Positions 6,594 through 52,817 of a stretch of 64,000 nucleotides of DNA are shown here, piece after piece (the stretch's first letter is position 1; every line of letters begins with the position of its first letter). The notes under the pieces are model-generated. The model was not told where the DNA came from, did no database searches, and was given only the letters and a program-made list of their open reading frames with translations. A program made the position numbers and the translations under genes. Origin of the DNA: Shinella kummerowiae (GTDB lineage Bacteria; Pseudomonadota; Alphaproteobacteria; Rhizobiales; Rhizobiaceae); assembly GCF_009827055.1 (NCBI RefSeq), contig NZ_WUMK01000001.1, positions 1 to 64,000 of the forward strand, written 5' to 3'.

Positions 6594-7337
6594 ATGTCCC
6601 TTCCCACCACTGCCCTCTTTCGCGACGATTTTTATCTTTCGACAAACGAGGCGGTGGTGACGGCGGTGCACGAAGACGGCGGCATCGAGCTCGACCAGAC
6701 CTGTTTCTACGCCACGTCCGGCGGCCAGCCAGGCGATACGGGCTTCCTCGAGCGTGCGGACGGCAGCCGTATCGCGCTTGGTCCGGCCGTAACGGGCGCG
6801 ACCAAAGAGATCGTCATTCACCGTCCGCTGGAGGGCGAGACCTCGCCGATCGTCGGCGAGACCGTCGTTGCCCATATCGACTGGGCGCGGCGCTACAAGC
6901 TGATGCGCATGCATACGGCCTGCCACCTGCTCTCCGTCGTCTGCCCCTTCCCGATCACAGGTGCTGCCGTCGGCGAAGACGACAGCCGCGTCGATTTCGA
7001 CATGACGGAGACCATCGACAAGGACGATGTGACGGCGAAGCTGATGAAGCTCGTTTCGGAAAACCATCCGATCTTCGTGCAGTGGATCACCGACGAAGAG
7101 CTTGCAGCCAACCCCGGCATCGTCAAATCGAAGAACGTGCGCCCGCCCATGGGGCTTGGTCGCGTCAGCCTCGTCTGCATCGGTGAGAACTCGTCGATCG
7201 ACAGCCAGCCCTGCGGCGGCACGCACGTCTCCGAAACGCAGGAAGTCGGCGCCATCCACATCGCCAAGATCGAGAAGAAGGGCAAAGAGAACCGCCGGTT
7301 CCGCATCCGTTTCGGTGCGCCGGGGTCGGAAGGCTGA
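6594..7337 (+). CDS. alaX: Alanyl-tRNA editing protein AlaX (trans-editing hydrolase)
   Basis: 247 residues, the size of AlaX-M. These free-standing homologues of the AlaRS editing domain hydrolyse Ser (and Gly) from mischarged tRNA-Ala. The N-terminal FYATSGGQPGD loop, the zinc-binding HTACH motif and the second half-site CGGTHVSET are all present, so the editing site appears intact. It begins 5 nt after cysK with only a weak ribosome binding site, so translation is probably coupled. The pairing with cysK is notable because O-acetylserine and serine pools link the two activities; that link is an inference. Confidence 0.88.
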   Translation: MSLPTTALFRDDFYLSTNEAVVTAVHEDGGIELDQTCFYATSGGQPGDTGFLERADGSRIALGPAVTGATKEIVIHRPLEGETSPIVGETVVAHIDWARRYKLMRMHTACHLLSVVCPFPITGAAVGEDDSRVDFDMTETIDKDDVTAKLMKLVSENHPIFVQWITDEELAANPGIVKSKNVRPPMGLGRVSLVCIGENSSIDSQPCGGTHVSETQEVGAIHIAKIEKKGKENRRFRIRFGAPGSEG

Positions 7338-7412
7338 AGCTGTTTTTATTGCGCGATTCGCGGCACGCAAACGGCTGCGCACGTTTGCCGGAATTGCTTT
7401 GAGGAGAATGTG

Positions 7413-8267
7413 ATGTCCAACGACAAGAGCAGGTTCGTCGTCTCGGCGGATTGGGTGGAAAAGCAGCTCGGCGCGCCGGCGTTCCGTATCGTCGATGCCT
7501 CCTGGTATCTCCCCGCGCAGAACCGCAACGGTGCGGCCGAATATGCGAGCGGTCACGTTCCCGGCGCGGTTTTCTTCGATCAGGACGTGATCGCCGATCA
7601 TTCAAGCGCGCTGCCGCACACCGTGCCCTCGCCGGCCTTCTTTGCCACGGAAGTCGGAAAGCTCGGCATTTCGGATACCGATACCATCGTCGTCTATGAC
7701 GGCCCCGGCATTTTCACGGCACCGCGCGTCTGGTGGCTGTTCCGCACGATGGGCGCGAAGAACGTCTATGTCATGGATGGCGGCATCGACGGCTGGAGGA
7801 AGGAGGGGCGACCGCTCCAGACCGACCTGCCCGAACCGGCACCGGCCGTCTTTCATACCAACTTCAATCCCTACGCCGTCACTTCGTTCGAAGAGATGCG
7901 CGGCATCGTCTCGACCAAGTCCAGGCAGATCGCCGACGCCCGGGGGGCAGGCCGCTTCACCGGCGAGGAAGCCGAACCGCGCGCAGGCATGCGCTCCGGC
8001 CATATGCCGGGTGCAAAAAGCATGCCCTCCGGCACCTTCTCCGTCGACGGCAAGTTCAAGGATCTCGCAAGTTTGCGCCAGCATTTCGAGGATTCGGACA
8101 TAGACCTTTCCAAGCCGGTCGTGACAAGCTGCGGCTCGGGTATCACGGCCGCGATCATCACGCTGGCGCTCGCGTCGCTCGGCCATGACAACAACACGCT
8201 CTATGACGGCTCCTGGTCGCAATGGGGTGGCCGGGACGATACGCCGGTCGTGACGGGAAAAGACTGA
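7413..8267 (+). CDS. sseA: 3-Mercaptopyruvate / thiosulfate sulfurtransferase
   Basis: 284 residues in two rhodanese domains: an inactive N-terminal domain (about residues 8-125, with ASGHVPGAVFFD and YDGPGIFTAPRVWW) and an active C-terminal domain (about 155-280). The catalytic loop SCGSGITA has the Cys and the Ser/Thr pattern typical of mercaptopyruvate sulfurtransferases. It moves sulfane sulfur from 3-mercaptopyruvate (a cysteine transamination product) to acceptors. The ATG at 7413 is favoured over the in-frame GTG at 7410 because the GAGGAG site is 6 nt upstream. It overlaps the next gene by 1 nt (TGATG). Confidence 0.9.
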   Translation: MSNDKSRFVVSADWVEKQLGAPAFRIVDASWYLPAQNRNGAAEYASGHVPGAVFFDQDVIADHSSALPHTVPSPAFFATEVGKLGISDTDTIVVYDGPGIFTAPRVWWLFRTMGAKNVYVMDGGIDGWRKEGRPLQTDLPEPAPAVFHTNFNPYAVTSFEEMRGIVSTKSRQIADARGAGRFTGEEAEPRAGMRSGHMPGAKSMPSGTFSVDGKFKDLASLRQHFEDSDIDLSKPVVTSCGSGITAAIITLALASLGHDNNTLYDGSWSQWGGRDDTPVVTGKD

Positions 8268-8857
8268 TGGCGAAAAAAGTCCAGCCGGCACCGATCAAGG
8301 TGCACATTACCGCGCTTGAAATGACGAGTGCGCCGAAACAGAGCCTGCCGGTGCCGGTGAACGTGCATACCGCCATCCTCAGCGCGCCGGATATCCCGCT
8401 CGCCTTCTACCGTTTCCTCTACCGGCAGGTCGGCAGCCGCTGGCACTGGGTCGACCGCTTGCGGATGAATGACGAGACATTGACGAAAACGCTCCACGAC
8501 AAGCGCAACAGCGTCACCGTGCTTTACGTCAACGGTGCTCCGGCGGGTTTCTTCGAACTGTTGCAGGTCGACGGGGATGTCATCGAGCTTTCCCATTTTG
8601 GCCTGCTCGAACGCGCCCTCGGCCTCGGCATCGGTAAATGGTTCCTGCTCCAGACCCTCTATGCCGCTTGGGCGCTCGGGCCGAAGCGTGTGACGGTCAC
8701 CACAAATGATCTCGATCATCCCCGCGCCCTCCAGCTCTACCAGATGTTCGGCTTCTCGCCCGTCGGCACATCGGATGCGGAGGTCGTTCCCCTCTCCGAC
8801 GCCGAATTGCTGGACCTAGCAAAGCGCGACTGCCTGATGCCCGTTGAGGGCCGTTAA
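8267..8857 (+). CDS. GNAT-family N-acetyltransferase
   Basis: 196 residues with a GNAT fold. After a 30-residue lead, the segment around FYRFLYRQVGSRWHW is followed by the strand pair VLYVNGAPAGFFEL and ELSHFGLL, the acetyl-CoA loop (GLGIGKWFL, a variant of Q/RxxGxG/A) and the C-terminal DHPRALQLYQMFGF motif. It starts in the stop codon of sseA (TGATG), so it is translationally coupled to the sulfur cluster. The acceptor substrate is unknown; an amino-acid or sulfur-metabolite acetyltransferase is possible but not shown. Confidence 0.8.
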   Translation: MAKKVQPAPIKVHITALEMTSAPKQSLPVPVNVHTAILSAPDIPLAFYRFLYRQVGSRWHWVDRLRMNDETLTKTLHDKRNSVTVLYVNGAPAGFFELLQVDGDVIELSHFGLLERALGLGIGKWFLLQTLYAAWALGPKRVTVTTNDLDHPRALQLYQMFGFSPVGTSDAEVVPLSDAELLDLAKRDCLMPVEGR

Positions 8858-44547: not shown

Positions 44548-45231
44548 CTATTCTTTGGCGGAACTTGCGCCTTCAATTCTCTTCTTCAGGCGTGAAGACG
44601 AGGTCGTGTATTCCAGCGTCGAGCGTCCGCCCGGTAAGCAGATGCGTCGCACCGCCTGCGTCATCAGCGCCACCTCGTGAAAGCCGGACAGGATAAGCCG
44701 CAGCTTCCCCGGATAATGGCAGGCATCACCGATGGCGAAGACACCCGGCTGCGATGTCTCGAAACGCTCCGGATCCACGATGAAGGCATCGCCCGAGCGT
44801 TCCAGCGGCCAGGCCGGCGCCGGGCCGGCCTCCAGCGACGGTTCCCCCGCACCGGGCACGAAGGTGCCAAGACCGGTGGCGACGACCACGACCCTGGCAC
44901 CAAGCGACGCACCGTCGTTCAAAGCGACCTGAAAGCGCCCATCCGGCTGCTGCGCGAAACCGACAACGGTTGATGCAAACTGAAACCGGGGCGAAAAAGG
45001 CGCGATCTGCGCAAGCAGGCGATCGGTCAGCTCCAGCCCGTCGATCTTCGGGAAACCCGGCACGTCATAGATCGGCTTGTCTGGATACAGTACGGCGCAC
45101 TGGCCGCCGGCGCGGTCGAGGCTATCGACCAGCGTGCATGTCAGCCCGTACAGCCCGAGCTGGAAGACGGCGAAAAGCGCGACGGGGCCGGCGCCGACCA
45201 CAACCACATCGGTATCGGCGGCGAGCTCCAT
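44548..45231 (-). CDS. Short ferredoxin-NADP reductase-like flavoprotein lacking the NADPH domain
   Basis: 227 residues. The FAD-binding domain of thioredoxin-reductase-like ferredoxin reductases is complete in its N-terminal part (VVVVGAGPVALFAVFQLG, then AGGQCAVLYPDKPIYDVPGFP) and C-terminal part (PGVFAIGDACHYPGKLRLI, then GFHEVALMTQAVRR). Between VVVVATGLGTFVPGAG and the GVFAIGD motif only about 50 residues remain, whereas YumC-type reductases (about 330) carry an NADPH domain of roughly 110 residues there with its own GGGxSA motif. There is no CxxC redox pair. The frame is intact, with a GGAG site before the ATG, so this is a compact protein rather than a frameshift. It follows the ferredoxin gene by 24 nt in one operon. 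Confidence 0.78.
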   Translation of the reverse strand: MELAADTDVVVVGAGPVALFAVFQLGLYGLTCTLVDSLDRAGGQCAVLYPDKPIYDVPGFPKIDGLELTDRLLAQIAPFSPRFQFASTVVGFAQQPDGRFQVALNDGASLGARVVVVATGLGTFVPGAGEPSLEAGPAPAWPLERSGDAFIVDPERFETSQPGVFAIGDACHYPGKLRLILSGFHEVALMTQAVRRICLPGGRSTLEYTTSSSRLKKRIEGASSAKE

Positions 45232-45255
45232 TCAACGCTCCGAAAAAGGATGATG

Positions 45256-45576
45256 TCAGGCCTGACGTTCCGGCACGTGAACCACGAGCCCGTCGAGCGC
45301 ATCCGACATCTTGATCTGACAGGAAAGCCGCGAGGTCGGGCGGACGTCATAGGCGAAGTCCAGCATGTCCTCTTCCATCGCTTCCGGCGGGCCGACCGTC
45401 GCGCTCCAGGCATCGTCGACATAGACGTGGCAGGTCGCGCAGGCACAGGCACCGCCGCATTCCGCCTCGATGCCGGGCACGGAATTGCGCACGGCGTTTT
45501 CCATGACCGTGGAGCCGTTGGCGACATCCAGTTCGTGGCGTGTGCCATCGAAGGCGACGATGGTGAGTTTGCTCAT
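45256..45576 (-). CDS. 2Fe-2S ferredoxin, adrenodoxin type
   Basis: 106 residues. The cluster ligands follow the adrenodoxin pattern: Cys40-x5-Cys46-x2-Cys49 in [14 protein letters not shown] and a distal Cys86 in RLSCQI. The [19 protein letters not shown] start and the acidic patch [12 protein letters not shown] (a partner-binding surface in this class) are present. An in-frame upstream stretch to 45690 is Pro-rich and not needed; the ATG at 45576 begins family sequence. It is the first gene of a two-gene operon with the flavoprotein; it might also serve other partners such as cytochrome P450 or Fe-S assembly. Confidence 0.9.
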
Positions 45577-46145: not shown

Positions 46146-46673
46146 TTGCCAATATCCTTATATACGCTACGTACGCTTGTTTCATTGTGATGCACGCAGA
46201 TGCCGATGCGGGCCCGGTGTTTTCACCACGCTTCCGCAAGGACATGGGACAGCCATTCTGCGTCGCCGGCGCGCCTATCCGATTAAAAGACGGCGCAAAA
46301 TGGGCATGAATCGCAAACTATGGTTAACGGCTGAAAATTCGCCATTTTCGCAAGTTTTCCATTGCGATACAGATTCGCCGAATCTTAACTTCCTGTTAAG
46401 TTTCGGGCGAAGGGAGATGGCAATGAATTGTGTGATACAGGCTAATGTGTCACTACGATACGACCGGATAATCCCGGTGGATAAACCGTGGGCGGAGTAC
46501 ACCATTTCGTCCTTCGGGGTTATCGAGCGAATTTGAAATGAACGGGGGCCTGGACGCTGCTTGCCATGAGGGTATGCAGCAAGACCGGCCACCAACCGGA
46601 CGGTTCGAATGCGCCTGAGCAGCGGCAGCGCGCATGAAGCCCAATCCTGGACATGGTAACGAGGCGTATCCGC
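46146..46673. other. 528-nt divergent control region, Hpt / gpr-like gene
   Basis: No credible gene. It has a locally AT-rich core around 46310-46440 with the CtrA and GANTC sites described separately. Confidence 0.5.
46371..46400 (+). promoter_or_regulatory. CtrA box with two adjoining GANTC sites upstream of the gpr-like gene
   Basis: TTAA-CTTCCTG-TTAA at 46385-46399 is a full TTAA-N7-TTAA CtrA box within a 6-bp inverted repeat (CTTAAC/GTTAAG). GATTC and GAATC, both CcrM (GANTC) methylation sites, lie directly before it (about 46372-46384). A further TTAAC half-site lies near 46324. The box is 275 nt before the gpr start and 240 nt before the divergent Hpt gene, so it may control either. 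Confidence 0.6.
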
Positions 46674-49600
46674 ATGGCGACGAACAAGTCTATCGAGTCG
46701 ATCGACGAAAAGGCCTTCCAGGCGCTCGAAGAAGCACTGAAAATCGACTTTGACGATCTCACGCCCGAGACACCTTCGAAGCAGGACGCTTCGGAGACCC
46801 ATGCGTCTGAGCCAGCAAGCCGCACCGCGAACAAGATCCAGGACAAGACTGCAAGCCGCCCCACATCGGGCGAGACAGCGCGCAACCTGAGCCCCGAGCC
46901 CGCCCCGAAGGCACCGGCCTTCACCCCCGCCAATGACGGCTCGCGCAAGACGCCTGCTGCCATCCTGAAATCGCTCGACGTACGCTCGGGCCGCGCACCG
47001 ATCCGCATGGCGGTCCTCGCCTCCATCCTCTGGGTCATCGGCGGCATTGGCGTCGCGAACCTGCTTTATGCACCGCAGATCTGGCAGATCCGGTCCATCG
47101 CCGATCTCGTGGCGCTGCCCGGCGCCATTGGCATGGTCGTCGCCATCGTCATGCCGATCATGCTGTTCTTCGCTTTCGCGATCATGATCGCGCGTGCCCA
47201 CGAACTGCGCAACGCCGCCCGCTCGATGGCCGAAGTTGCCCTGCGCCTCTCCGATCCGGAAACGGTCGCATCCGACCGCATCATGTCGGTCGGCCAGGCC
47301 GTTCGCCGCGAAGTGTCGGCGATGAACGAAGGCATCGAGCGCACGATCGCCCGCGCGACCGAGCTCGAAACCCTCGTTCATTCCGAGGTCAACGCGCTCG
47401 AACGCAGCTATTCCGACAATGAAATGCGCGTGCGCACGCTTGTGCAGGAACTCGGCTCGGAACGCGAGGCGATCGTCAGCCACGCCGAGCGTGTCCGCTC
47501 CTCGATTTCCGGTGCGCACGAACAGCTCAAGGACGAGCTGGCGAGCGCCGGCGAGAGCATCACGCAGCGCCTTGCCACCTCGGGTGAGGCTTTCGCCTCC
47601 ATGCTCGACACCCGCGCGGCGATGCTGATGGAAAAATCCGACAGCGCCACGCAGACGATCGGCGCCATGCTGTCGGCCCGCACGGACAGCCTGCTGTCGA
47701 CGCTCAGCTCGTCAGGCCTCGCTCTCGCCAATGAATTCGACACCCGCCTCGACCAGCTCACCAAGAACCTCGATTCGCGCGGTCGCGATCTGCTTCAGCA
47801 GTTCGAAACCCGCGCAAGCTCGCTCGATACCAACACGGAAAAGCTGAACGCCGCGCTCAACGACCGCGCCAAGCAGCTCAACGAGACGCTGATCGCCCGC
47901 ACCCGCGAGATCAGCGAAAGCCTGTCCGTTGGTCAGCACGCCGTCACCAGCGGGCTCGATCATGTCATCCAGTCGATGAACGCCGCGCTTGACGAAAAGG
48001 GCGCGCAGTTCCGCCAAAGCCTGAAGAACGCAGCCGACGACACCGTCATGGATCTCGACCTGCGCACGGGCTTCTTCGACGAGCGCATGCAGGCGACGGT
48101 CGGCCAGATCGCCGGCTCCTTCGACCAGCGCGTGGAAGAATTCACCCAGGCGTTCGACCAGCGTGCCGGTTCACTCGATTCCAAGCTGATGGAGAGCCTT
48201 GCCCGCATCAACGAGACGGTGGCAAGCGGCCGCGACTCGATCGATGGCATCCTGACCTCCAGCATCGAGCGTCTCGACAACACGCTGACCGACCAGTCCT
48301 TCGCGCTCGCCACCAGCCTCGGCACCAGCCAGGAGCTGTTCGAGAGCGCCGTCACCGGCCATGCCGACGCGATCAGCAATGCGGCAAGCAGCGCCCATGA
48401 GCGCATGACGTCCATTCTCTCGGAAAAGTCCTCGACGCTTCTCGGCGGTCTCGCCGACGTCCAGAACCGCATCGAAAGCGGTTTTGGCGTCCGCGCCGAT
48501 GCGCTGGCTGAGAGCATTTCGGGCAGCGAACGCCGCCTGACGGAAGCGCTCGATTCCCGCGGCACGGCCATCGCCACCGATATCGAATCCGCACAGGCGC
48601 GCATGGAAGAGGCGCTTGGCGCCCGCAGCCAGGCCTTGGTCGAAAGCATCTCCGGCAGCGAACGCCGCCTGACGCAGGCGCTGGATTCCCGCGGTGCGAC
48701 GATCGCCGACGATATCCAGGCCGCACAGGCCCGCATGGAAGAGACGCTCGGCGCGCGCGCCGACGAGATCACCTCGACGATTGCCGCAAGCCACAACCGC
48801 ATCGACAGCGCGCTGTCCGAACGCACCGCGGCCCTGTCGTCGATGCTGAACGAGACCGGCAGCCAGTTGGAACAGTCGGTCGGCTCGGCCGCGAACCGCG
48901 TCGAGACCGCGCTGACTGGCGCTGCCCGCCAGATCGACGAAGTCATCACCGGCCGCACGGCAAACCTCGCCTCGGTGCTCTCCAACAGCGCCGGCTCCAT
49001 GCAGTCGGCCATCGACACCGCAGCGGACCGTGTCGAAAACGTGCTTACCGAAGGCAGCCAGCAGCTCGGTGGCGTCCTGCACGGTCAGGCCACGGAATTC
49101 GCCGATGCGTTCTCCGGCCGCGCCGCCGAGATCGCCGAAGCCCTGTCCGGCCGCGCCTCGGAACTCGCCGGCTCGCTCGTCTCCACCCACGAGCAGATCC
49201 GCGCCACGCTCGACGACCGCATCAACGCCATCAACCTGGCGATCACCGACGGCCGCAACCAGCTGACCGAAACGCTCAACGATCAGGCGACCAATATCGG
49301 CACGTCGATCGCCACCAGCGCCGGCATGCTGGAATTGACGCTGGAGCAGCATGAAGAAACGCTGCGCCGCACGATCGACGGCAGTGCTGCCCTGCTCGAC
49401 CACCGCGTGCGGGAAAGCGCCGGTGCCGTGGCCGAACGTCTCGGCGAGACCACCTCCAAGATCGCCGAGGCTGCCAATGCCTTCGGCGCACGCATGGAAC
49501 AGACGGTCGACAGTGTTGCGACCCGCTTCGACACGACGGGCAGCAAGCTCGAAGAAAACCTCGGCAAGCTGGAAGCCCGCATCGAACACAGTGTCGAGAA

Positions 49601-52600
49601 CGTTTCCGGTATCGTCGACACCGCCGCCGCCCGCATCTCCGACACCCTGGCCGACCGGCTTGCCGACCTTGATCGCGTAGGCAGCGACGTGTCGCTGCGC
49701 GTCTCCGACGCCCTCTCCCGCCCGATCGCCGAAGTCGACCGTATCGGTGACGAGACGACGGCCCGTATCGCTGCAACGCTTGCCGGCCGTGTCGGCGACA
49801 TCGAGCGTGTCAGCGCGGATGCGGCCGAACGTATCGAAGGCGCGCTTTCCGGCCGCGTCTCGGATATCGAGCGCGTCAGCACCAGCGCCGCGGACCGCAT
49901 CGAGGGCGCCCTCTCCGGCCGCCTCGACGATATCGAGCGGGTGACGGGCGAAGCCGCCCAGCGCATCGATGGTACGCTCGCCGAACGCGCCACGCAGATC
50001 GAACGCATTGCCAGCGAGGCTGCCGAACGCATCGACGGCACGCTCGCCAAGCGCGCCGGCCAGATCGCCCGTGTTACCGGTGAAGCCGCAGAACGCATCG
50101 ACGGCACCCTCACGGAGCATGCCGGCCAGATTACCCGCATCTCCGGCGAAGCCGCTGAGCGTATCGGTGGCACCCTCTCGGAGCACGCCGGCCAGTTCGC
50201 CCGTATCTCCGGCGAAGCCGCGGAACGCATCGACACCACCCTTACCGAACACGCGAGCCACATCACCCGCGTCACCGGTGAGGCCGCAGACCGCATCGAT
50301 GGAACGCTTGTCAGCCGGGCCAGCGATATCGAGCGCATTTCCGGCGAAGCCGCCGACCGCATCGCCACGACCATCGACGAGAAGACCGGTCGCATCGAGG
50401 AACGCCTCGGCACCATGGACCGGGCGCTCACCATCGGCCTCGACAGCGTCAACCGCACCATCGACGGCAAGGCTGCCGGGCTCGCCCAGACGCTGCGCGA
50501 TGCCGTCACGCAGGCCGCCCAGGACATGGACGCCGAAGCAATCCGCTCGGCCCAGTCGCTCGCCAAGACCGGCGAGGAATTCGCCCATCTCAGCGCGTCG
50601 CTCCGGGGCGCCGTTTCCCGTGCGGCACAGGACATGGGTGCGGAAGCCCAGCGTACCGCCGACAACATCGCCCGCACCGGCGAGGAGTTCGCCGATAACC
50701 TGTCCGCCCGCAACGAAGCCTTTGCCCGCGCCGTCGAGGAAACCACCACCTCCGCCGTCGCCCGCTTCGCGGAAACGGAAGACCGTATTGCCAACCAGGC
50801 GCAGTCGCTGCGCGCGGGCCTGGGCGATGTCGAAAAGGCTCTGGAAACGCGTGGCGCCTCCATCCGCTCGACGCTCGACGATCGTACCCGCGAACTCAAC
50901 TCCATGCTGGCCAGCCGCACGGAGGAACTGTCGCGCCTGATCAACGAGGAAGCCCGCCCGGTCATCGACGACTATGCGGCTGCCGGACGCGAAGCTGCCG
51001 AGCGCATCAGCGGCGTCGCCCGCGAAAGCGCCGATCGCCTGCGCAACGAGAACGCGGCATTGATCAATGCGATCTCGGCCCGCACCTCCGATACGCTCGC
51101 TGCAATCTCCGCCCGCACGGAAGAAGCCGCTGGCTCGATGCGCGCAATCGAAGACGGCCTTCAGGCAAATGTCGAAAGCCTGATCGCTCGCCTTTCGGAA
51201 AGCAACGGTGCAATCTCCGGCCTGGTCGATGCCGCCAGCCAGACGCTCGGCGCCATCGACGGGCGCCTGACGAACACGGCCGAACGCTTCAATGCCTCCG
51301 CCGAGCGCGCCTCCGACATGGTCTCCACTACGTCTCGCCTGCTGGAAGGCAAGGTCGATCGCCTCTCCGATATTTCGGCCGGCACGCTCTCGCAGATCGG
51401 CGGCATCGTCGGGCGCTTCGAGGATCATTCGAAGATCCTGTCCCAGGCCTCCGACCTGCTCGCCGCCGCCCAGTCGAACCTCGTCTCGACGCTGGAAGAG
51501 CGCCAGGATGCGCTGCGCTCGCTGTCCATCGGCCTGGTGCAGCGTTCGGAAGAGATCGAGAAGACGATGCAGTCGCTTGAAGGCATGGTCGAGGGCGCCT
51601 TCGGCCGCGCCGAAGAGCGCGCGAACCTGATCGCCGGCAATCTGCGCGGCGGCATCCAGACCTCGTTCGCGGAAGTCGGCCGCATCCTCGGTGAGACTGA
51701 AAAGCGCGCCGAATCCGCCGCGAACACGCTGCGCGACTCTCTGGTCAAGGCCGGTGAAGAAGCGGGCCAGTCCGTCGAAGGCGCCTTCGTACGCGCCGAG
51801 GAGCGGACGAAGGAAGTGGCAAACCGCCTGCGCGGTAGCGTCGGCGCCTCGCTCTCCGATGTCGATCGCCTGCTTACCGAATCCGGCAAGAAGTCCGAGA
51901 CCGCCACGGCCGTCATGCGTGATGCGATGCGCGAAGCGGTCGAGGAAGCCGTCGGAAAGTTCTCCGGGGCGACCGAGGAGATCCGTCGCGCCGCCACCGA
52001 AATCCGCAAGGAACTCGACCAGACCCGCGGCGAACTGAAGCGCGGTGCCTTCGACCTTCCGGAAGAAGCCAAGGAAAACGCCGCCCAGATGCGCCGCGCC
52101 GTCAGCGAGCAGATCAAGGCCCTGCAGGATCTGTCCGACATCATCGGCAAGTCCTCCTCTGCGCTGGAAGTCTCCCGCCCGGCCGTGCAGGCAACCGTTG
52201 TCCAGCAGCCGGTGCAGCAGGCCCGCGTAGAGCCTGTCCGCGAAGAAGCGACGCCGCCGCTGCGTGGCAGCCTCGGCCTGGAGCGCGCGGCAACAGCAAC
52301 TGTGCCGCAGCGCGCACAGCCCGTGCCCGCCGAAGCCGACAGCAAGGCGGCCGGCGAAGGCGGCTGGATGCGCGACCTCCTGCGCGGCGCCGTCTCGCGT
52401 GAGGAAGCCCAATTCGCCCAGCCGCGCGGCGACGGCCAGGCAGCCCGCCCGGCCGACAACCGCAATCCGCGTCACGTCGTCGAATCGCTGAACTCGCTCT
52501 CGGTCGATATCGCCCGCGCCATCGATCACGATGCTTCCGTCGACCTGTGGCGGCGCTATCAGCGCGGCGAGCGCGACGTCTTCACCCGCCGCCTCTACAC

Positions 52601-52817
52601 GCTGAAGGGCCAGCAGACGTTTGACGAGATCAAGCGCAAGTACGAACGCGAGCCGGAATTCCGGACCGCCGTCGACCGCTACATTTCGGACTTCGAAAAG
52701 CTGCTCGCCGACGTTGCCCGCAACGACCGCGACAAGGCGATGACGCAGACCTACCTCACCTCGGATACCGGCAAGGTCTACACCATGCTGGCCCATGCCG
52801 CGGGCCGCTTCAGCTAA
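46674..52817 (+). CDS. GPR/RgsE-like giant coiled-coil polar growth protein
   Basis: 2047 residues. A short, acidic, disordered N-terminus (1-105) is followed by two membrane helices (about 112-133 and 148-172), then about 1700 residues of almost unbroken helical, apolipoprotein-like sequence, and a conserved globular C-terminus (about 1935-2047, with NPRHVVESLNSLSVDIARAI and YTMLAHAAGRF). Two periodicities are clear: a 44-residue unit repeated at residues 614 and 658, and ten consecutive 22-residue units (1023-1242). Size, topology and apolipoprotein-like repeats match the growth pole ring protein GPR of Agrobacterium (about 2115 residues) and RgsE of Sinorhizobium, needed for unipolar growth and rod shape. 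The ATG at 46674 has a GAGG site 8 nt upstream. Confidence 0.85.
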   Translation: MATNKSIESIDEKAFQALEEALKIDFDDLTPETPSKQDASETHASEPASRTANKIQDKTASRPTSGETARNLSPEPAPKAPAFTPANDGSRKTPAAILKSLDVRSGRAPIRMAVLASILWVIGGIGVANLLYAPQIWQIRSIADLVALPGAIGMVVAIVMPIMLFFAFAIMIARAHELRNAARSMAEVALRLSDPETVASDRIMSVGQAVRREVSAMNEGIERTIARATELETLVHSEVNALERSYSDNEMRVRTLVQELGSEREAIVSHAERVRSSISGAHEQLKDELASAGESITQRLATSGEAFASMLDTRAAMLMEKSDSATQTIGAMLSARTDSLLSTLSSSGLALANEFDTRLDQLTKNLDSRGRDLLQQFETRASSLDTNTEKLNAALNDRAKQLNETLIARTREISESLSVGQHAVTSGLDHVIQSMNAALDEKGAQFRQSLKNAADDTVMDLDLRTGFFDERMQATVGQIAGSFDQRVEEFTQAFDQRAGSLDSKLMESLARINETVASGRDSIDGILTSSIERLDNTLTDQSFALATSLGTSQELFESAVTGHADAISNAASSAHERMTSILSEKSSTLLGGLADVQNRIESGFGVRADALAESISGSERRLTEALDSRGTAIATDIESAQARMEEALGARSQALVESISGSERRLTQALDSRGATIADDIQAAQARMEETLGARADEITSTIAASHNRIDSALSERTAALSSMLNETGSQLEQSVGSAANRVETALTGAARQIDEVITGRTANLASVLSNSAGSMQSAIDTAADRVENVLTEGSQQLGGVLHGQATEFADAFSGRAAEIAEALSGRASELAGSLVSTHEQIRATLDDRINAINLAITDGRNQLTETLNDQATNIGTSIATSAGMLELTLEQHEETLRRTIDGSAALLDHRVRESAGAVAERLGETTSKIAEAANAFGARMEQTVDSVATRFDTTGSKLEENLGKLEARIEHSVENVSGIVDTAAARISDTLADRLADLDRVGSDVSLRVSDALSRPIAEVDRIGDETTARIAATLAGRVGDIERVSADAAERIEGALSGRVSDIERVSTSAADRIEGALSGRLDDIERVTGEAAQRIDGTLAERATQIERIASEAAERIDGTLAKRAGQIARVTGEAAERIDGTLTEHAGQITRISGEAAERIGGTLSEHAGQFARISGEAAERIDTTLTEHASHITRVTGEAADRIDGTLVSRASDIERISGEAADRIATTIDEKTGRIEERLGTMDRALTIGLDSVNRTIDGKAAGLAQTLRDAVTQAAQDMDAEAIRSAQSLAKTGEEFAHLSASLRGAVSRAAQDMGAEAQRTADNIARTGEEFADNLSARNEAFARAVEETTTSAVARFAETEDRIANQAQSLRAGLGDVEKALETRGASIRSTLDDRTRELNSMLASRTEELSRLINEEARPVIDDYAAAGREAAERISGVARESADRLRNENAALINAISARTSDTLAAISARTEEAAGSMRAIEDGLQANVESLIARLSESNGAISGLVDAASQTLGAIDGRLTNTAERFNASAERASDMVSTTSRLLEGKVDRLSDISAGTLSQIGGIVGRFEDHSKILSQASDLLAAAQSNLVSTLEERQDALRSLSIGLVQRSEEIEKTMQSLEGMVEGAFGRAEERANLIAGNLRGGIQTSFAEVGRILGETEKRAESAANTLRDSLVKAGEEAGQSVEGAFVRAEERTKEVANRLRGSVGASLSDVDRLLTESGKKSETATAVMRDAMREAVEEAVGKFSGATEEIRRAATEIRKELDQTRGELKRGAFDLPEEAKENAAQMRRAVSEQIKALQDLSDIIGKSSSALEVSRPAVQATVVQQPVQQARVEPVREEATPPLRGSLGLERAATATVPQRAQPVPAEADSKAAGEGGWMRDLLRGAVSREEAQFAQPRGDGQAARPADNRNPRHVVESLNSLSVDIARAIDHDASVDLWRRYQRGERDVFTRRLYTLKGQQTFDEIKRKYEREPEFRTAVDRYISDFEKLLADVARNDRDKAMTQTYLTSDTGKVYTMLAHAAGRFS
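48513..48776 (+). repeat. Two 132-bp tandem units inside the gpr-like gene
   Basis: The segment encoding SISGSERRLTxALDSRG is repeated 132 bp later (48513 and 48645). Each unit encodes 44 residues (2 x 22), and the DNA is nearly identical at the start of both, indicating a fairly recent duplication. Confidence 0.8.
49740..50399 (+). repeat. Ten 66-bp tandem units (22-residue repeats) inside the gpr-like gene
   Basis: Ten in-frame units fit the pattern RxxxEAAxRIxGTLxxRAxxIE, residues 1023-1242. The DNA has diverged more than the protein, so the array is old except for local similarities. Twenty-two-residue periodicity is the hallmark of apolipoprotein-like amphipathic helices. Confidence 0.85.

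Follow-up and report, generated by a model that had tools for sequence, protein, structure and literature searches.

A ferredoxin-linked flavoprotein of the Rhizobiaceae without the NADPH domain of its reductase relatives

Two-domain flavin reductases are usually viewed as one machine, in which NADPH enters by one domain and leaves by the other. Among them, the ferredoxin:NADP reductases (FNRs) of the thioredoxin-reductase type, represented by the structures from R. palustris (5ygq), B. subtilis (3lzw, YumC) and C. tepidum (3ab1), are the closest described relatives of the gene studied here. It lies at 44548..45231 on the minus strand of a 64,000-nucleotide stretch of Shinella kummerowiae DNA (positions 1 to 64,000 of contig NZ_WUMK01000001.1, in the following the window) and encodes a flavoprotein of 227 amino acids (aa). 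The protein shares with these enzymes both halves of the flavin adenine dinucleotide (FAD) domain, the Gly-rich FAD motif, GGQ, the si-face tyrosine, the Gly-Asp motif, the C-terminal extension and the operon with a ferredoxin. The NADPH domain of about 123 residues is gone and positions 24, 51, 170 and 171 differ, and judged by its domains the protein is no longer a ferredoxin:NADP reductase. We read this short form as a working single-domain flavoprotein that arose when the nested NADPH domain was deleted in frame, with ferredoxin as presumed donor and a presumed further acceptor, and give this reading a probability of about 0.55.

Ferredoxin-dependent flavin thioredoxin reductases (FFTRs) keep, according to an excerpt of PMC12796991, a second NADPH-domain-like domain with CxxC, whereas the short form has neither. 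By analogy it would work like such a ferredoxin-fed flavin reductase, yet by its sequence it is not an FFTR, because the second domain and CxxC are missing. The comparison with flavin thioredoxin reductases drawn in a first-pass annotation, made from the letters of this DNA, was therefore inexact, since the window protein retains nothing of that domain. The CxxC and the NADPH domain of NADPH thioredoxin reductases were likewise absent from the window protein. A small relative by fold is TTHA0370 of T. thermophilus (2cvj, 180 residues; Foldseek TM score 0.62 by query and 0.76 by target length). It is likened by fold alone, with 24% identity in the fold alignment, and was absent from the best 60 of 76 profile-search matches. 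Rare functional partial domains are described in general terms in an excerpt of PMC4432964. For a reductase of this type without NADPH domain, no account was found in the open-access literature, with subscription papers mostly outside this scope.

In a phmmer search against PDB sequences the best match of the flavoprotein was R. palustris 5ygq (E 6.2e-57). Residues 6-128 align to 5ygq 6-128 and residues 132-219 to 5ygq 252-339, while 5ygq 129-251, the NADPH domain, is unmatched; about 123 residues are reduced to three, in frame. The junction lies at codons 124-134 (44830..44862, minus strand). Cysteines occur at positions 32, 45, 171 and 198, and the translation contains no CxxC. Thus, the open reading frame and the 5ygq alignment bear out what the first-pass annotation had described, a 227-residue flavoprotein with both FAD halves and neither NADPH domain nor CxxC. 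Its estimate of about 50 residues, with some 110 more needed for the NADPH domain, was right in substance (227 aa against 339-348 aa in full-length relatives) but loosely put, and its assignment to the YumC type was correct, the nearest solved relative however being 5ygq. Structure prediction of the single chain gave a complete FAD domain (predicted local distance difference test 87). Curated models make no claim on the protein, which reached 38.7 bits against a cutoff of 343 for TIGR01292; it scored above the cutoff of Pfam Pyr_redox_2. Since the window's genome gave a single match to the flavoprotein at E <= 0.001, no full-length paralogue was seen there.

Both flavin-stacking tyrosines are retained. 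Tyr49 (45085..45087, minus strand), invariant in alignment A2, corresponds by alignment to Tyr50 on the si-face in B. subtilis FNR, the role of which is treated in an excerpt of PMC10526003. By the 5ygq register, the C-terminal extension carries Tyr208 (44608..44610, minus strand), which is nearly invariant in the same alignment and corresponds to Tyr328 of R. palustris FNR, a re-face residue according to the title of a reference in PMC10526003. The ferredoxin gene (45256..45576) lies upstream of the flavoprotein gene on the same minus strand with 24 bp between them, in agreement with the single operon proposed earlier. It encodes a [2Fe-2S] ferredoxin of 106 aa of the FdVI/putidaredoxin/adrenodoxin type (Fer2), with 3hui (E 4e-45) as best PDB match, followed by 1e9m, ferredoxin VI (E 6e-36).

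The short form was searched for at the level of the family (394 sampled genomes) and of the order (397 genomes). In the family, 230 genomes had any match to the flavoprotein at E <= 0.001, and 25 genomes from ten genera had a contiguous short match. Named carriers include strains of Shinella (6 of the 21 genomes of this genus), Mycoplana, Rhizobium and Sinorhizobium, as well as Chelativorans, Ochrobactrum and Brucella cytisi. Among the matches listed, no family genome had both the short and the full-length form, and 77 of 193 database proteins measured 190-250 aa. Such proteins are named 'thioredoxin reductase (NADPH)' in the database, which is probably wrong. In the order-level search, the contiguous short matches among those listed came only from two genomes of the window's family (G000 and G054); two listed matches from other families had short open frames, of 184 aa (G751) and 269 aa (G469). 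An artefact of assembly or frameshift is ruled out, because short forms recur in 25 genomes and the frames are open, with an ordinary start, in 24 loci. The possibility that close homologues are always full length, raised by the first-pass annotation as a refutation, is thereby excluded. A seemingly short form in a metagenome-assembled genome of Gammaproteobacteria (L036) was dropped, as a run of N reading X had made the protein look short.

The genes of the window were mapped onto 54 loci of relatives. Apart from local gaps the order is conserved: a large coiled-coil gene, Hpt, ferredoxin, then the full-length reductase, the short form or nothing, followed by DUF922, folP, folB and folK. In 21 of 25 short loci the flavoprotein gene follows that of ferredoxin at a distance of -23 to 153 bp, and 49 of 51 full-length loci have ferredoxin near the reductase. 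The ferredoxin itself was found in 381 family genomes. A tblastn search of the protein against 15 ferredoxin-DUF922 gaps revealed no remnant better than E 0.13, and in six gene-less genomes of the same genus the region 3' of the gene site retains 82-87% identity across 233-331 bp, with the coding part missing and no remnant of it detected. Because close relatives differ at this one locus in having the full-length gene, the short gene or none, they form a natural series in which the dismantling and reuse of an enzyme could be studied, as could the question of which cell process needs the ferredoxin branch. This three-state locus, the link to Fpr, the at least two separate deletions and the signature residues of the short form go beyond the first-pass annotation. 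As a separate case, the full-length reductase of one locus (L145 of genome G303, approximately 7312-8325) has a broken frame, with a 240-aa open reading frame from the start and the second half matched downstream; the ferredoxin beside it is intact, and the genome has no Fpr.

Fpr, the bacterial ferredoxin:NADP reductase, also serves ferredoxin, but it belongs to an unrelated fold family (FAD_binding_6) and keeps its own NADPH module. In genus g84 the short-form gene sits elsewhere in 4/4 short-form genomes, its start overlapping the stop of fpr by one base. The neighbouring reductase (270-271 aa) matches NF008178, ferredoxin--NADP(+) reductase, with E 2.7e-40 and 138 bits, below the curated cutoff of 390, and PF00970 (FAD_binding_6). 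The short form thus has as its gene neighbour either ferredoxin or the enzyme able to reduce it. This operon was also seen near cysG and a cobG-cobH-cobI-like run (L132, 1888-3450 and 10221-12948).

Fpr-like matches were detected in 25 of 25 short-form, 10 of 10 gene-less and 10 of 16 full-length genomes. Of the 394 family genomes, 52 were without Fpr, comprising 44 with a full-length-type reductase, none with the short form and eight with neither; the 342 genomes with Fpr comprised 85, 25 and 232, respectively. Uncorrected for kinship, Fisher tests by Fpr presence gave p 1e-16 when full-length genomes were set against all others and p 1.5e-4 when short were compared with full-length. Here, full-length-type is defined by score, and of the rows listed with a frame, two have a disrupted or truncated one (G303, 249 aa; G197, 168 aa). 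Six of the eight genomes with neither Fpr nor reductase are 61-81% complete and the other two, G065 and G150 of genus g66, are fragmented, with estimated completeness of 100% and 95%.

Selection was assessed in sequence pairs by the ratio of nonsynonymous to synonymous substitution rates (dN/dS, YN00). Nine ferredoxin-locus short pairs gave 0.067-0.189 over dS 0.4-2.7 and two fpr-locus short pairs 0.211 and 0.285, so the short form is under purifying selection. Among eight full-length pairs, six gave 0.016-0.044 and one 0.162, and one had no dS value. Because of its higher dN/dS, the constraint on the short form is weaker than on its parent. In both forms, 39 residues are conserved to at least 95%, FAD motifs included.

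Residues that distinguish the two forms were identified in an alignment of 48 short rows (21 from the ferredoxin locus, four from the fpr locus and 23 chosen from the 77 short database proteins) and 59 full-length rows. Position 51 (45079..45081, minus strand) is Asp in 48/48 short rows, against 97% Glu in the full-length ones; position 24 (45160..45162, minus strand) is Gln in 43/48, against 97% Glu, with Glu24 kept in the five database forms P0055, P0059, P0097, P0127 and P0161. By genome, all 25 short forms carry Gln24 and Asp51, whereas at each of the two positions 50 of 51 full-length forms have Glu. Directly after the Gly-Asp of the FAD motif follow Ala170 and Cys171 (44719..44724, minus strand), each present in 20 of 21 ferredoxin-locus short forms (95%), where full-length proteins have Ile (98%) and Asn (97%). 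The four fpr-locus forms have Ala, Ile, Val and Ala in place of Cys171, which is also lacking in L120 (row P0090) and in 12 of the 23 metagenome-derived database forms.

Most likely, the duty of passing electrons from NADPH to ferredoxin would have gone to Fpr, and the FAD domain would have been retained as a ferredoxin-fed flavoprotein. Fpr would supply NADPH electrons to ferredoxin, and reduced ferredoxin would pass single electrons to the short-form FAD, in the manner of the reverse reaction of the parent enzyme. The flavin, its re-face no longer served by an NADPH domain, might then hand the electrons on, giving a putative path of NADPH, Fpr, ferredoxin, short-form FAD and acceptor. By analogy the short form is probably still a homodimer, since the dimer contacts of the parent (si-face loop, helix 6 and C-terminal extension) lie in the FAD domain. 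A selected FAD-only form shows that a flavin module can be kept alone where another enzyme, here Fpr, can feed ferredoxin.

Several observations weigh against a working ferredoxin-fed protein. The gene is dispensable, as 15 of 21 genomes of the genus are without it although flanks are conserved and the ferredoxin is kept; its dN/dS exceeds severalfold the ratio in six of the seven full-length pairs for which one was obtained; five g17 short forms (196-205 aa) are without the C-terminal extension and its re-face tyrosine; and no candidate acceptor gene was found. The missing genes and the raised dN/dS would also suit a slow decay, in which Fpr made the reductase redundant, the NADPH domain was lost first and the remnant, still binding FAD and ferredoxin but doing little, is on its way out. 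The three states of one locus and the absence of either form from 232 of the 342 Fpr-bearing genomes would fit this as well. We regard decay as unlikely, given a dN/dS of 0.07-0.19 maintained over the dS range of the nine pairs, the 39 residues conserved in both forms, FAD motifs among them, recurrent substitutions after the deletion and, in one genus, relocation to a compact operon shared with fpr.

If the protein works, its electrons could be spent differently. A ferredoxin oxidase, passing electrons from reduced ferredoxin through FAD to oxygen or quinones and so preventing over-reduction of the ferredoxin pool, would agree with the placement beside ferredoxin or fpr and with a flavin which, from the model, is expected to be exposed once the NADPH domain is gone. 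Nothing in the evidence points specifically to oxygen, and to our knowledge the parent enzymes are not physiological oxidases, so we consider this improbable. Still less probable is a ferredoxin-fed thiol/disulfide reductase in which Cys171, placed directly after the conserved Gly-Asp of the FAD site, replaces CxxC and reaches the function of flavin thioredoxin reductases by another route. The frequency of Cys171 at the ferredoxin locus, against Asn in the full-length form, speaks for it; its absence from the fpr-locus, L120 and metagenome forms listed above and the lack of any further conserved cysteine particular to short forms speak against it. Direct use of NADPH, bound without a Rossmann NADPH domain as in p-hydroxybenzoate hydroxylases, has a precedent in enzymes of such kind (excerpt of PMC6315137), but the NADPH-binding segment of the parent is entirely missing and we hold it to be very doubtful.

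From the aligned sequences, the NADPH domain was lost at least twice, independently, because P0161 is without full-length residues 130-250 and P0126 without 154-260, each keeping a stretch lost in the other. Only single-gap rows (P0079, P0161, P0126, P0127) were used for these boundaries, since the calculation splits the linker in most rows. A flanking-gene tree of 79 loci, built by a quick method and with 24 of its 76 inner branches left open, has ferredoxin-locus short forms in six places. Well-supported branches set g17 and g29 apart from the main clade, while g101, g16 and g11 attach at open forks, the branch of g11 being long and covering 49% of the columns. FAD-domain trees group the short forms, with support 99.8 (63 rows) and 80 (107 rows), and the species tree forced on this domain, at first fully resolved with weak nodes not collapsed, was rejected. 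Looser constraints were also rejected by log-likelihood difference and approximately unbiased test (5000 replicates, too few by the program's own warning): g17 63.9 and 4e-5, g29 53.2 and 3e-4, g11 32.6 and 0.006, and all three together 138 and 9e-7. About ten sites carry most of this signal, and Gln24 has more than one origin in the 107-row tree, where the pairs P0079/P0161 and P0126/P0127 each hold one Glu and one Gln; for these reasons both convergence and horizontal transfer may underlie the grouping. The conflict between the trees could stem from parallel change once the domain had been lost, or from transfer to the same locus. Tentatively, and as a less probable extension of the ferredoxin-fed reading, the NADPH domain may have been excised repeatedly, perhaps at least six times at one orthologous locus, with parallel changes (Asp51 and Gln24, later Ala170-Cys171) turning each remnant into one and the same single-domain ferredoxin:acceptor oxidoreductase, a class not described before.

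Two further elements were noted in the window. The small RNA Atu_C7 of Rhizobiales (Rfam RF02501; 44393-44537, plus strand; 51.8 bits against a gathering cutoff of 45) is convergent with the 3' end of the flavoprotein gene, and its region is also conserved in genomes without that gene. A long-repeat open reading frame of 2054 aa (46653-52817, plus strand) is divergent from the Hpt gene and keeps its position in most loci compared.
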